A stretch of DNA of 39,502 bases from Candidatus Methylacidiphilales bacterium (lineage in GTDB: Bacteria; Verrucomicrobiota; Verrucomicrobiia; Methylacidiphilales; CAZTYG01): contig JANRJG010000013.1 of NCBI GenBank assembly GCA_033875315.1, positions 1-39,502 on the forward strand. The letters are read 5' to 3'. The notes below the pieces were generated by a model. That model was not told where the DNA came from. It searched no databases and worked only from the letters and a program-made list of their open reading frames with translations. Made by a program: the position numbers and the translations under genes. Below are positions 129-3,662 of the stretch, piece by piece. The number at the start of each line of letters is the position of its first letter. Position 1 is the stretch's first letter.

Positions 129-241
129 TTCCGAACGTCCCCGCATCAACCAGACACGGCCGTGGCGCGGCTCATGGCTACGAGCGTAGCGAGAGCAGGA
201 GACGTGACGCGGGAGGGTCTTGGGTGCATGCGCTGGTTCGG
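129..241 (-). repeat. attC recombination site (long class, about 113 bp)
   Basis: The plus strand starts with a CCGAAC core and ends with GGTTCGG, which are inverse complements. Between them is an imperfect palindrome with an extended central part containing GTAGCGAGAGCAGGAG and GTGACGCGGG. It follows the stop of the 246-506 gene on the minus strand and precedes the start of the next cassette gene. It resembles the long site at 3252-3361. Confidence 0.75.
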
Positions 242-245
242 ATTT

Positions 246-506
246 TTACTGCGGTGATATTCTCAAGATCTTGGTTACGATATAGTTTGATTTTAGGATA
301 CACCAAACCCCTGCCAGAAAATGAAAGAAATGTGATATAATGCCACTTAGCGCGTAGCGATTAACTGTCCACACTTTGCCCTCCATATAGGAAGCAAGGG
401 GATCGATATAGCTATAAAGTCCTCCTGCAACCCAGACCAGTCCGGTGACACTTAGAAGTAACCCGATTATCTTCACGAGGACAGTAGCTAGATCGTATGG
501 TTTCAT
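246..506 (-). CDS. Cassette-encoded small membrane protein
   Basis: This 86-residue protein starts MKPYDLATVLVKIIG. It has two hydrophobic segments, at about residues 8-32 and 52-72, so it is probably a two-pass inner-membrane protein. The start ATG lies about 10 bp after a GTTCGG core, and the stop is just before the next attC, so one gene fills the cassette. It is AT-richer than the chromosomal backbone genes. No family is recognised, and a function cannot be inferred beyond membrane location. Expression would depend on read-through from the integron promoter or on a promoter in the cassette; none is obvious. Confidence 0.7.
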   Translation of the reverse strand: MKPYDLATVLVKIIGLLLSVTGLVWVAGGLYSYIDPLASYMEGKVWTVNRYALSGIISHFFHFLAGVWCILKSNYIVTKILRISPQ

Positions 507-511
507 ATGTA

Positions 512-572
512 TTCCGAACGTCGCGCATCAGCCGCCCGCGTTTCGCGGGTTGGCTGGATGCGATGGTTAGCT
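512..572 (-). repeat. attC recombination site (short class, about 61 bp)
   Basis: The site begins TTCCGAACG and ends GGTTAGCT on the plus strand, with a palindromic core (GCCCGCG TTT CGCGGGT) flanked by pairing arms (GCATCAGCC and GGCTGGATGC). The cores match the RYYYAAC/GTTRRRY logic of attC sites with C or A at the variable positions. Confidence 0.8.
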
Positions 573-576
573 GTTT

Positions 577-951
577 TTAATTGTCTTTGAAACCCGGGAA
601 ATCTTGAAGCCATTTCAATCGTGCTTTCTCACATAATTTGCATCTAAAAATAATTGTCGTCTTTGCGGTATCTACCGCACATCCGCCGCCTACCCATTGT
701 CTTGCGTGCGGGAATTTGGTCATGCTCGCCACTTCCCATATTGGGTCGATATCAAATAATCCATACCTTATTTCCACTGGTTTTTTATACATCTTACTCT
801 GATGCAATGTACAAGTGCCGGACTCCTGATCTTTCAAGCATTGACCTATGTGGGGATCCAGCCACTTCAAATCAGGTTCTGGCAACGGCAAAGCGATAGC
901 CGTGCATGCAAACAGCGCCGAAAGGAAGTAGAACTTGATTAGATAATTCAT
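577..951 (-). CDS. Cassette-encoded exported protein, unknown
   Basis: The 124-residue product begins MNYLIKFYFLSALFACTAIA, a typical signal peptide with likely cleavage near residue 20. The mature part has six cysteines, including a C-x2-C pair near the C terminus (CKLCEKAR), so it probably sits outside the cytoplasm with disulphides or a metal site. The frame stays open upstream to 1059, but those extra residues are encoded by the attC; I chose the ATG at 949-951 because it starts right after the GTTAGC core and gives a clean signal peptide. No family is recognised. Confidence 0.7.
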   Translation of the reverse strand: MNYLIKFYFLSALFACTAIALPLPEPDLKWLDPHIGQCLKDQESGTCTLHQSKMYKKPVEIRYGLFDIDPIWEVASMTKFPHARQWVGGGCAVDTAKTTIIFRCKLCEKARLKWLQDFPGFKDN

Positions 952-956
952 GTGTT

Positions 957-1016
957 TGCTAACGTCAACCATCAGCCGACGCGCGCAGCGCGTTGGCTGG
1001 ATGGTCTGGTTCGGCT
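957..1016 (-). repeat. attC recombination site (short class, 60 bp)
   Basis: It runs from GCTAACGTC to GGTTCGGCT on the plus strand. The inner arms GACGCGCG and CGCGTTGGC, with outer arms ACCATCAGCC and GGCTGGATGGT, can form a nearly complete hairpin. It separates the cassette genes at 577-951 and 1022-1378. Confidence 0.82.
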
Positions 1017-1021
1017 CTTTT

Positions 1022-1378
1022 TCAAAGAAGGCGAAGGCATAGTGAAATGGCAAAGCCAAGTAGCAAGCAAATGACAGAATGAATCCAAAATCTATTTATG
1101 TAGGGCTGCCTTATCCAGTGGTTCGGTGAGGATGAATCGCGACTCATGGAATACAGCGTCAGAGAAATTAGCCCATAAACCACGAGGGCACTAGTTAGCA
1201 GAAGTATCAGGGTGGAAAAGGCACCCGCTAATCCCATATTCATTTCGTTTCTGTGTTCGGTAGCAACAAAAGACGTGAACACTCCATAAACTACGTTCCA
1301 TGAAATGATCGCAAAGACAGGGCCAAGCAGGACTGACAATGTCCAAAGCATCGGATCGAATATGCGATGGTTTTTCAT
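1022..1378 (-). CDS. Cassette-encoded membrane protein
   Basis: The 118-residue product from the ATG at 1376-1378 starts MKNHRIFDPMLWTLSVLLGP. It has three predicted membrane spans, at about residues 11-33, 50-74 and 97-116. The open frame extends upstream through the attC to 1429, but the internal ATG after the GTTCGG core matches the cassette pattern and is preferred. No family is recognised. It may be a small multi-pass membrane protein of the kind often seen in cassette arrays. Confidence 0.68.
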   Translation of the reverse strand: MKNHRIFDPMLWTLSVLLGPVFAIISWNVVYGVFTSFVATEHRNEMNMGLAGAFSTLILLLTSALVVYGLISLTLYSMSRDSSSPNHWIRQPYINRFWIHSVICLLLGFAISLCLRLL

Positions 1379-1384
1379 TTGTAT

Positions 1385-1443
1385 GCCGAACGTCCGCCAT
1401 GTGCCAGGCGCGTTAGCGCCTTGGCTCAATGGCGTGGTTCGGC
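1385..1443 (-). repeat. attC recombination site (short class, about 59 bp)
   Basis: The plus strand begins GCCGAACGTC and ends GTGGTTCGGC. The palindromic centre is CAGGCGCG TTA GCGCCTTGGC. The stop codon of the 1426-1893 gene lies inside this site, so its last few residues are encoded by the attC. Confidence 0.8.
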
Positions 1444-1893
1444 TTCTTGAATCTGTTTGCTTTTTTTAAAATTTTCTCCAAAGGGAAAAGCCTCATTTCT
1501 GTGTTTTAGAGAGTATGCCATAGCGTTCGCGTAATCACGCCAAATAAAAATCTGAGGCCTCTCCGTATAATTCTGAAGCAGCCATAATACCTGCTCTTCA
1601 ATTTCACTATTCGGAAAAACGACGATAGGATTCTTATCATTGTAATCCCGTCTGACTTCGAACACTAAATCGCCATTTGTTCTGTCCCGGTCAGGTAAAA
1701 CGAAAATATGCAAAATCTGGCCGTATGGAGAAATAAATGACAGGCAGTAGGATCCTCCATCCAAAAATGAATCGGCACCCGCCAACTTCCAATATCCCTT
1801 TTTCTGCGCGAGCTCGGTGAGTGCATCTTCTTTTGACGTTTGGGAGCAGCCTCCGAAAAATAAGAGAAGTAGGATTGCCGCTATACTTTTCAT
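1426..1893 (-). CDS. Cassette-encoded predicted lipoprotein
   Basis: The 155-residue product starts MKSIAAILLLLFFGGCSQ, a short lipoprotein-type signal with the invariant Cys at residue 16. The lipobox FGGC is slightly non-standard, having F at -3. The mature protein looks globular and soluble, with no other membrane span, and would be anchored to a membrane face. The start chosen is the ATG at 1891-1893, about 10 bp after the core; a longer frame to 1923 would run through the attC. The C-terminal EAEPRH is encoded by attC sequence. No family is recognised. Confidence 0.72.
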   Translation of the reverse strand: MKSIAAILLLLFFGGCSQTSKEDALTELAQKKGYWKLAGADSFLDGGSYCLSFISPYGQILHIFVLPDRDRTNGDLVFEVRRDYNDKNPIVVFPNSEIEEQVLWLLQNYTERPQIFIWRDYANAMAYSLKHRNEAFPFGENFKKSKQIQEAEPRH

Positions 1894-1898
1894 TTCTG

Positions 1899-2003
1899 TA
1901 CCGAACGTCCCTGCGTCAGCCACCCCCGGAGCCGGGCACCCGAGGCTGCTCCGCAGCCGAAGTGTCGGGCGGAGTGGGGTTGGCTGGACGCGATGGTTCG
2001 GCT
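1899..2003 (-). repeat. attC recombination site (long class, about 105 bp)
   Basis: It begins TACCGAACGTCC and ends CGATGGTTCGGCT on the plus strand. Outer arms GCGTCAGCCACCCC and GGGGTTGGCTGGACGC pair; the centre carries further hairpins, such as GGCTGCTCCGCAGCC. The sequence of the central insert differs from those of the other two long sites. Confidence 0.75.
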
Positions 2004-2353
2004 TATTTTGTCCACTTGTATGTTCTCATTTTTCCGTCTTCATTCCAACTGGCTGTGCGGGTAGCGCCATCGTAGGTAAAGCCCTTCCGTCTTGCGAGCC
2101 ACCAAGAAAATGAAAATAGAAGTTCTCCGAGAATGCCGACTGCAAAGGGCATGAGGAAAATCCAATATGTGGGCCGCGGTAAGGAGGTAATCAAATAAGT
2201 GGCTGGGAAATAGACCATCAGCCCAACCAACAAAAGAAGTCCTGCAAAACCGATCAGATCGGCAGTAACATGGATCGCGTATCCCGCTGGTGAGCATTGC
2301 TGCTTTCCAAGGCGCTCACTCTCTGAGTCCCACATTGGATAGATAAAAAGCAT
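2003..2353 (-). CDS. Cassette-encoded membrane protein
   Basis: The 116-residue product starts MLFIYPMWDSESERLG. Two to three hydrophobic segments are visible (about residues 29-55 and 61-86), followed by a basic, polar C-terminal tail (ARRKGFTYDGATRTASW) that probably faces the cytoplasm. The start is 9-10 bp after the GTTCGG core and the stop touches the next attC, so the gene fills its cassette. No family is recognised. Confidence 0.68.
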   Translation of the reverse strand: MLFIYPMWDSESERLGKQQCSPAGYAIHVTADLIGFAGLLLLVGLMVYFPATYLITSLPRPTYWIFLMPFAVGILGELLFSFSWWLARRKGFTYDGATRTASWNEDGKMRTYKWTK

Positions 2354-2360
2354 TTTCTTA

Positions 2361-2419
2361 TGCCGAACGTCCTTCAGCAGCCGCGCGCGTAGCTCGTTGG
2401 CTGACTGAACTGGTTAGCC
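2361..2419 (-). repeat. attC recombination site (short class, 59 bp)
   Basis: It begins TGCCGAACGTCC and ends CTGGTTAGCC on the plus strand, with arms TTCAGCAGCCGCGCGC and CGTTGGCTGACTGAA around a short loop. The stop codon of the HEPN-type gene (2414-2416) is inside the terminal core. Confidence 0.8.
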
Positions 2420-2896
2420 ATTTTGTTTTTCGAATAGTCTTTTCTCAAAGAGTGGCGCAAAAACTTGAACGTGGTGATTCCAGAAACCCATGACGGTTTC
2501 TGCGCATAGTAAGCTCAAATGCTTGGGGTCATCCAAACGAGTTTTACGATCAGAGGCCGTATAACCTCTAAACTCGGAAAGATCTTCCTTCGTTATTTTG
2601 AAATCTACCTCGTGTGCGGCATCATTTCTCTTACGTCTAAACCAATGCAAAAACTTTGCATCCTCGTCAGATATTATTCCGGCCTCATTTAGCATCGTCA
2701 CTTTTATAGATTGGGTAAACTCTCTGGCTCCTTCCGCGATTCTTTTTGAGTTCTTGCAACGCTGTAAGGCAAGCTGATGAACCAGTAATTCCAAATAACA
2801 ATGTGTAACTATAATTTGAACTCTCGGGTGCTGCGGAAGCGCCGCCAATTCATCAATTAGCCGCTTTATAACATTTTGAGGTAAAGGTTTTTTCAT
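2414..2896 (-). CDS. Cassette-encoded HEPN-like protein (putative RNase/DUF4145-like)
   Basis: This 160-residue all-helical, soluble protein starts MKKPLPQNVIKRLIDELAAL. At about residues 86-98 it carries WFRRKRNDAAHEV, matching the R-x4-6-H motif (RNDAAH) that defines the active centre of HEPN ribonucleases, with the usual preceding helix. Members of this superfamily act as toxins, abortive-infection effectors or RNA-processing enzymes, often with an adjacent nucleotidyltransferase antitoxin. Here the cassette holds this gene alone, so a partner is not visible. The overall layout resembles the DUF4145/HEPN group; the motif is seen, the RNase function is inferred. The start is a few bases after the GTTAGC core and the stop lies within the attC. 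Confidence 0.65.
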   Translation of the reverse strand: MKKPLPQNVIKRLIDELAALPQHPRVQIIVTHCYLELLVHQLALQRCKNSKRIAEGAREFTQSIKVTMLNEAGIISDEDAKFLHWFRRKRNDAAHEVDFKITKEDLSEFRGYTASDRKTRLDDPKHLSLLCAETVMGFWNHHVQVFAPLFEKRLFEKQNG

Positions 2897-2900
2897 AACA

Positions 2901-2960
2901 GGCTAACGTCAACCGTGTGCCACGCGCGTTTCGCGCGTTGGCTCGACGGTCTGGTTCGGA
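2901..2960 (-). repeat. attC recombination site (short class, 60 bp)
   Basis: It runs GGCTAACGTC to CTGGTTCGGA on the plus strand. The arms CGCGCG TTT CGCGCG form a perfect hairpin, extended by ACCGTGTGCCA and TTGGCTCGACGGT. It is the clearest attC in the window. Confidence 0.85.
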
Positions 2961-3230
2961 TTATCCTTTTGATTTCATGCTGTAATAAGTGGCCACGGAA
3001 AAAACTAATCCTGTAAGTAGACAAGCACCGATAATAGTAAATTCTGAAACGTCTATTGAAGATGTCTCAATTCCTGAATTGGTTACAGTTTGCTTTGTTT
3101 CTACATATGCAATAGGCCAACCGTATTTAGTATCGAACGAACTGAATGAAAACATGCCGGCCCAGATGGTAATAAGCGCACTCCATATAATCATGATACT
3201 TATAGAAATTGTATGGCGTTTACTGATCAT
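2961..3230 (-). CDS. Cassette-encoded small membrane protein
   Basis: The 89-residue product starts MISKRHTISISIMIIWSALI and has two hydrophobic spans (about residues 8-29 and 65-84) separated by a polar, probably periplasmic loop of about 35 residues. An upstream ATG closer to the core (near 3247) stops after six codons, so the ATG at 3228-3230 is the usable start. No family is recognised. Confidence 0.65.
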   Translation of the reverse strand: MISKRHTISISIMIIWSALITIWAGMFSFSSFDTKYGWPIAYVETKQTVTNSGIETSSIDVSEFTIIGACLLTGLVFSVATYYSMKSKG

Positions 3231-3251
3231 GATGAGAAGAAATTCATGCTT

Positions 3252-3361
3252 TCCGAACGTCCGCCGTCAGCCGCCCGTGGCTGCGGCGCGACTCCTGCCG
3301 TAGCGAAGCGGAAGCAGGAGGCGTGACGCGGGCGCGGGTTGGCTGGACGGCCCTGTTCGGA
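3252..3361 (-). repeat. attC recombination site (long class, about 110 bp)
   Basis: It begins TTCCGAACGTCC and ends CTGTTCGGA on the plus strand. Arms CCGTCAGCCGCCCG and CGCGGGTTGGCTGGACGG pair, and the centre has an extra hairpin with arms CTCCTGC and GCAGGAG. The central insert resembles that of the site at 129-241 (shared blocks around GCAGGAG and CGTGACGCGGG). Confidence 0.78.
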
Positions 3362-3568: not shown

Positions 3569-3575
3569 ATGTATT

Positions 3576-3662
3576 CCGAACGTATATTAGATGGCAGGTT
3601 GGGAATTTTGCAATAGACAACTGGTTGTCTATTGCCATAATGTCAACTTGCCGGAGGTTTTG
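3576..3662. other. Putative attI/intI promoter region of the integron
   Basis: The last cassette core (CCGAACG on plus) ends at 3582 and no further attC follows. In known integrons this point is the attI site, next to the integrase promoter. The stretch carries the 24-bp palindrome at 3611-3634 and a good ribosome-binding site (GGAGG at 3652-3656) for the divergent frame beginning at 3663. The attI identity is inferred from position; I see no confident attI-specific motif. Confidence 0.4.
3611..3634. promoter_or_regulatory. Operator-like palindrome
   Basis: CAATAGACAAC and GTTGTCTATTG form perfect 11-bp inverted arms around the two bases TG. It sits 29 bp upstream of the start of the truncated plus-strand ORF and about 45 bp upstream of the first cassette start on the minus strand, so a protein bound there could affect both directions. 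It lacks following T residues, so a regulator site or recombinase site is likelier than a terminator. Confidence 0.5.

Follow-up and report, generated by a model that had tools for sequence, protein, structure and literature searches.

Passages of the 2013 survey by Anantharaman et al. (PMC3710099) place both the DUF4145 and the MtlR proteins in the HEPN superfamily, which is defined there by an R-x4-6-H motif with a polar residue after the Arg. The same passages suggest that the members of a separate "integron cassette HEPN" family (3jrt) are dormancy-inducing RNases. In excerpts from later reports, PD-T7-3 is a validated defence system (PMC9519451) and is listed with HEPN (PMC10952713), while the BREX-associated BxaP, whose N terminus is DUF4145-like, was tested on phage T4 and called a phage-defence protein (PMC10799925). 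Parts of the DefensePredictor report count four HEPN systems among 31 that were validated and describe DS-11 as a single-protein CBS-HEPN system (PMC13092281). Integron cassettes are known to carry phage-defence genes, and approximately 10% of V. cholerae integron cassettes conferred phage protection, according to sections of a review (PMC12409362). Among the titles surveyed, none concerned a DUF4145/MtlR-type HEPN cassette in Verrucomicrobiota.

The window analysed here is the entire 39,502-nt contig C13 of a Candidatus Methylacidiphilales bacterium, in which an earlier note had reported a HEPN-type protein at 2414-2896, carried as a lone integron cassette. These coordinates were found to be correct, and the strand, on which the note was silent, is minus. 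The gene is a single open frame from ATG to TAA encoding 160 aa (P0001), of which residues 85 to 97 are spanned by WFRRKRNDAAHEV. Cassette recombination cut points are placed by the usual G/TT rule. The frame occupies about 90% of the resulting 539-bp cassette. Its ATG is preceded by a leader of just 10 nt and its stop codon falls within attC, so that there is no space for a promoter, a second gene on the P0001 strand or a co-encoded partner; the gene is thus "lone" as described. The surrounding array consists of small minus-strand genes arranged head to tail, each followed by an attC-like site, and P0001 with its downstream attC, oriented as in the rest of the array, has the form of an integron gene cassette. 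Five matches to the attC-like consensus were obtained, every one within the first 3 kb of the window, where shuffles predict 0.02; the total of eight sites in Table 1 includes those found by looser scans and by reading.

Table 1. Features of the P0001 cassette and its array (positions in the window)
Feature	Position	Strand	Basis or remark
P0001 CDS, DUF4145/MtlR-type HEPN protein	2414..2896	-	open frame, Pfam DUF4145, HEPN fold
R90-N91-D92-A93-A94-H95 codons, RN-x3-H active-site motif	2612..2629	-	kept in two nearest relatives
E36 codon, helix-2 acidic residue	2789..2791	-	E in 24/33 aligned
539-bp P0001 cassette, as delimited by its cut points	2368..2906	-	sequence reading and G/TT rule
attC-like site of P0001 cassette, downstream of gene	2363..2418	-	overlaps stop codon
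attC-like site of preceding cassette	2902..2959	-	hairpin z -3.1 this strand, -2.7 other
Eight attC-like sites, one orientation	131..3360	-	repeats, consensus, looser scans, reading
Individual attC-like sites	131-241, 514-571, 958-1014, 1386-1442, 1901-2005, 2363-2418, 2902-2959, 3253-3360	-	
Last CCGAACGT core, partnerless; array boundary, possibly attI or remnant	3575..3582	-	sequence
Adjacent cassette ORF (116 aa), apparently a membrane protein	2003..2353	-	no family match above cut-off
Adjacent cassette ORF (89 aa), apparently a membrane protein	2961..3230	-	no family match above cut-off

The array continues past the left end of the contig. Sites of the same type, in opposite orientation, were observed at the start of contig C1, and two unusually long sites, one at 1901-2005 in the window and the other on C1 (L012:113-215), have 2 differences over 83 bases. 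Given the shared site type, the opposite orientation and this near-identical long pair, C13 and C1 may be opposite ends of a single array that has been broken apart. At the other boundary, directly past the last attC core, an inverted repeat of 29 nt around a 2-nt loop (window 3593-3652) may represent an attI remnant or a regulatory element; a promoter-like match on the plus strand (10/12) lies inside this repeat region at 3614-3641. The promoter scan gave weak consensus matches only.

The term "integron" in the earlier note was borne out with respect to the cassettes and their attC array but not with respect to an intI gene beside it. Across the whole genome the integrase model TIGR02249 scored at best 81.9 bits against a cut-off of 265, and none of the matches was beside the array. 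These sub-cut-off matches sit on other contigs and resemble Xer recombinases, and the model also gave below-cut-off matches in 14 of 14 control genomes. One of them, at the edge of contig C12, reads by eye as an Xer-type recombinase beside an rRNA methyltransferase gene. That GC-rich contig edge (L006:1-2091, G000:C12), in which the recombinase gene is partial, could be foreign to the MAG. An intact integron was considered, but no integrase above the cut-off was found in the genome, and the array is best termed a cassette cluster without a detected integrase. Parts of the array are missing at contig ends, so an intI gene may have escaped assembly.

P0001 matched Pfam DUF4145 (PF13643) at 24.7 bits, above the gathering cut-off of 23.1 (E 2.5e-5). 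No match to MtlR (PF05068) was obtained at E values up to 5, nor was one found elsewhere in the genome, and the PADLOC models, PD-T7-3 included, gave none up to E 10. An apparent second DUF4145 copy in the genome (C38, 16.4 bits) was discarded because its frame reads by eye like ribosomal protein S1. The nearest relatives were L060, 64% identical to P0001 (102/159) and from genome G468 of the same class, and L002/L010, 35% identical and from a Verrucomicrobia MAG of the same order; their DUF4145 scores, 14.3 and 17.3 bits, respectively, were under the cut-off. The protein is rare, being present in 2 of 98 relatives and 1 of 387 phylum genomes (own genome counted in each), and the phylum searches returned the window as the sole match. 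A profile search of the class matched 7 of 384 genomes, weak matches and the own genome included. The DUF4145 family as a whole is more widespread (35 of 238 genomes, own included). Single-sequence searches of the genome contigs and viral contigs with P0001 gave nothing useful, and the same was true of phages and plasmids at E 0.01. At E 10 there were four weak plasmid matches, and the one examined scored just 12.5 bits against DUF4145. The A1 profile had no matches in viral contigs and the L010 protein none in plasmids, and PDB sequence searches gave chance-level matches only.

The predicted structures were then considered. The P0001 model was of middling confidence (mean pLDDT 61.7, pTM 0.60), with block means of 71 to 88 over residues 31 to 100, and the L010 model was better (pLDDT 81.4, pTM 0.77). 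In Foldseek neither model had a match with E below 0.001 (best 3.2e-2 and 2.9e-2), and the top places went mostly to HEPN structures, including MtlR, HepS and HepT. The best solved match of the P0001 model was MtlR 6kcr (Z 10.0, rmsd 3.7, 116 aligned), followed by 3brj (Z 8.3), 3c8g (7.7), HepS 9oij (7.4) and HepT 7bxo (7.0). The L010 model matched (VIA-align) MtlR 3brj (Z 12.3, rmsd 2.6, 132 aligned), YggD 3c8g (12.2), MtlR-HPr 6kcr (11.4), HepS (9.6) and HepT (8.1). Rows 1 to 22 of its match list are, judged by their titles, HEPN-type or nucleotidyltransferase-linked helical domains, with clearly unrelated rows from Z 4.9 on. Helical bundles may reach such Z scores through a common arrangement, but since the fold matches agree with an independent sequence family, chance is unlikely, and a four-helix HEPN-type fold is well supported as a prediction for P0001. 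A HEPN-type fold, as the reading in the earlier note requires, was recovered in both models, and the note's account of a HEPN protein in a single-gene cassette agrees with the sequence family, the fold comparison and the relatives.

The R-x4-H motif on which that account was based appears genuine, because P0001 passes the DUF4145 cut-off and because P0001, L010 and L060 share RN-x3-H together with the helix-2 Glu (E36); a chance match was rejected, as family, fold and relatives speak against it. In P0001 the motif takes the form R90-N91-x3-H95 at the end of helix 3 (residues 77 to 95 in the model), with the polar Asn directly after the Arg, as in the HEPN definition R-x4-6-H. To assess conservation more widely, 30 of the 46 DUF4145 matches were aligned with P0001, L002 and L011; L018, which has a stop in its match, was left out of the motif columns, giving 32 sequences there and 33 in the E36 column. 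The H95 position was His in 32/32 alignable sequences, the N91 position Asn in 30/32 and the E36 position Glu in 24/33. The R90 position was Arg in only 6/32 and Gly in 24/32, indicating that the canonical Arg is not a rule of the DUF4145 family; an Arg three residues N-terminal of this position was present in 16/32. Conservation of the Arg/His pair thus held fully for the His, and for the Arg among close relatives but not in the wider family. RN-x3-H was found in matches from five of the seven genomes of the class search (own, G051, G468, G470 and G523), those of G470 and G523 being more distant and MtlR-like. In G513 the match is interrupted by a stop and its frame is doubtful, and no R[NDH]x3H was present in the long frames of G633 (L059).

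The solved structures nearest to P0001 are MtlR regulators, and we therefore considered that it might be an MtlR-like HEPN protein with no catalytic role. It would then act as a small dimer, regulating or adapting, and would control expression by binding a protein or RNA and leave the RNA uncut. MtlR structures top the matches of both models, the A1-profile matches L061 (G523, over the cut-off) and L062 (G470, below it) both match Pfam MtlR, and passages of the 2013 survey suggest that many MtlR members are non-catalytic (PMC3710099). However, P0001 itself does not match Pfam MtlR, no mannitol or PTS gene was seen among the cassette ORFs scanned, and RN-x3-H with E36, the catalytic signature in those passages of the survey, is kept in P0001, L010 and L060. 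We regard this explanation as unlikely.

Between P0001 and L060 pN was 0.24 with synonymous sites (pS) saturated, indicating purifying selection on the protein. This bears on whether P0001 could be a neutral passenger whose cassette is not expressed and currently does nothing for the genome. The 10-nt leader, which means that the cassette has no promoter of its own, and the failure to find an integrase in the genome are consistent with such a passenger; the intact frame and active site are not, and neither is the purifying selection, although this covers all history since the common ancestor. A passenger is, in our view, very improbable.

A defence role was examined through the neighbourhoods of the relatives. 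In G468, a TIR-domain gene lies 59 bp downstream of the L060 relative on the same strand, and the two may form a two-gene system. Its product (L060:3223-4131) is a CAP12/Pycsar TIR protein (PF10137, 6e-25) that matches the PADLOC models PDC-S35 (8.5e-17) and PycTIR (2.3e-9); its N-terminal half, of about 150 aa, had no Pfam match. Upstream of the relative are an uncharacterised small gene and radC, and the strict pattern found no attC-like site at this locus. By ORF reading L010 has no obvious defence neighbour. On a viral contig (L047), a DUF4145 protein with RN-x3-H matches the PADLOC model of PD-T7-3 at 7.9e-17. After its gene (L047:1329-2678) comes a second one that weakly matches a model of type II restriction enzymes, and the genes on either side of the two look like those for tail and lysis functions in a P2-like phage.

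The TIR neighbour of L060, the resemblance of the phage-borne L047 protein to PD-T7-3 and the precedent of defence genes in cassettes all point to defence, with none being decisive. The suggestion in the earlier note that P0001 is a toxin or phage-defence effector is therefore plausible, though only by analogy with one relative's neighbourhood and with that phage-borne family member. Within this suggestion, P0001 could instead be a toxin-antitoxin or stress-dormancy toxin whose antitoxin is encoded elsewhere and which is kept for cassette stability or dormancy and not for phage defence. HepT-type HEPN toxins fold alike (Z 7.0 with the P0001 model, 8.1 with that of L010), and dormancy caused by RNA cleavage was proposed for integron HEPN proteins in passages of the 2013 survey (PMC3710099), but no nucleotidyltransferase or other partner gene was present in its own or neighbouring cassettes and neither L010 nor L060 has an adjacent MNT gene by ORF reading. 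We consider such a toxin quite improbable. A HepT/MNT pair was rejected, as no adjacent nucleotidyltransferase was found among the window cassette ORFs scanned.

Contig C1 carries a further cassette ORF of 196 aa (L012:550-1140, G000:C1) with an R-x5-H motif, LRNKFVAHS. Its product had no Pfam, NCBIfam or PADLOC match and nothing in plasmids. Four distant matches were found outside the own genome, of which two keep R-x5-H at the corresponding place, as MRDKMVAH (L050) and LRNELFAH (L052); the remaining two either match a different part of the protein or are interrupted by stops. Judged from the motif, this may be a candidate second HEPN protein of the same array.

The explanation that we favour, at roughly even chances, is that P0001 is a stand-alone HEPN endoRNase that belongs to the DUF4145/MtlR branch, has a cassette to itself and acts in phage defence. 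It builds on what was shown, namely, the anatomy of gene and cassette, the HEPN-type predicted fold, the active-site conservation in two relatives, the purifying selection and a cassette too small for a partner gene as well. Catalysis is likely; the defence role we infer, together with dimerisation, RNase activity, an RNA target and a trigger. P0001 would work as a homodimeric, metal-independent endoribonuclease, in which RNA would be cut where the RN-x3-H motifs of two copies (R90 and H95, aided by E36) meet at the dimer interface. The protein would be silent or tolerated during normal growth until a phage or stress signal switched it on, whereupon it would halt translation and so block phage spread. 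Several observations count against this explanation: the Gly at the R90 position in most aligned DUF4145 sequences; the top fold match to MtlR, some members of which are thought to be non-catalytic in passages of the survey (PMC3710099); the absence of a PADLOC match, the sub-cut-off DUF4145 scores of the nearest relatives and the middling P0001 model; the absence of a convincing defence match for any other cassette scanned; and a defence neighbourhood limited to one locus, that of L060, with no obvious defence neighbour at L010.

A more far-reaching version, which we put forward only tentatively and think doubtful, is that P0001 is a phage-sensing, partnerless HEPN RNase of the DUF4145/MtlR branch, reduced to a 160-aa single-gene defence unit in a Verrucomicrobiota cassette, with a second, unrelated HEPN-like cassette in the same array family. 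If this were true, Proteobacteria would not be alone in having such a small defence store, and genuine antiviral ribonucleases would exist in the MtlR branch. P0001 bears on the question of antiviral ribonucleases among the MtlR-like HEPN proteins, which are commonly classed as sugar regulators. Promoterless single-gene cassettes require compact defence proteins, and P0001, partnerless, 160 aa long and intact in its active site, provides a test case for how such a HEPN protein stays quiet and gets triggered. Verrucomicrobiota cassette arrays are, in addition, a place to seek defence genes.

Compared with known systems, P0001 is like DUF4145 (PF13643) in passing the family cut-off and in having the invariant His, the nearly invariant Asn and the usual helix-2 Glu. 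It differs in having Arg before the Asn where 24/32 have Gly and in being a free-standing protein, fusions to restriction or helicase modules being frequent in the family (passages of PMC3710099; long frames). MtlR/YggD (PF05068; 6kcr, 3brj, 3c8g) provides the closest fold to both models, but P0001 lacks a Pfam MtlR match and no mannitol genes were found among the scanned cassettes. PD-T7-3 is linked through the phage-borne DUF4145 protein of L047, which has RN-x3-H and matches its PADLOC model; P0001 does not match that model and is far shorter than its 432 positions. HepS of the Gifsy-1 prophage (9oij, 9oik) shares the HEPN fold (Z 7.4 with P0001, 9.6 with L010) and, bound in 9oik, by the entry title, to the lambda J tail tip, offers a phage-sensing precedent, but it is prophage-borne and has no sequence match to P0001. 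The "integron cassette HEPN" family (3jrt) is likewise a conserved-motif HEPN protein in an integron cassette, but in the passages cited it is kept apart from DUF4145 and assigned to gammaproteobacteria (PMC3710099); 3jrt was absent from our PDB sequence and fold match lists, an absence that excludes no relation to P0001. Since HEPN integron cassettes have been known since 2013, the novelty of P0001 is modest and lies in its branch, its host and its partnerless one-cassette form.
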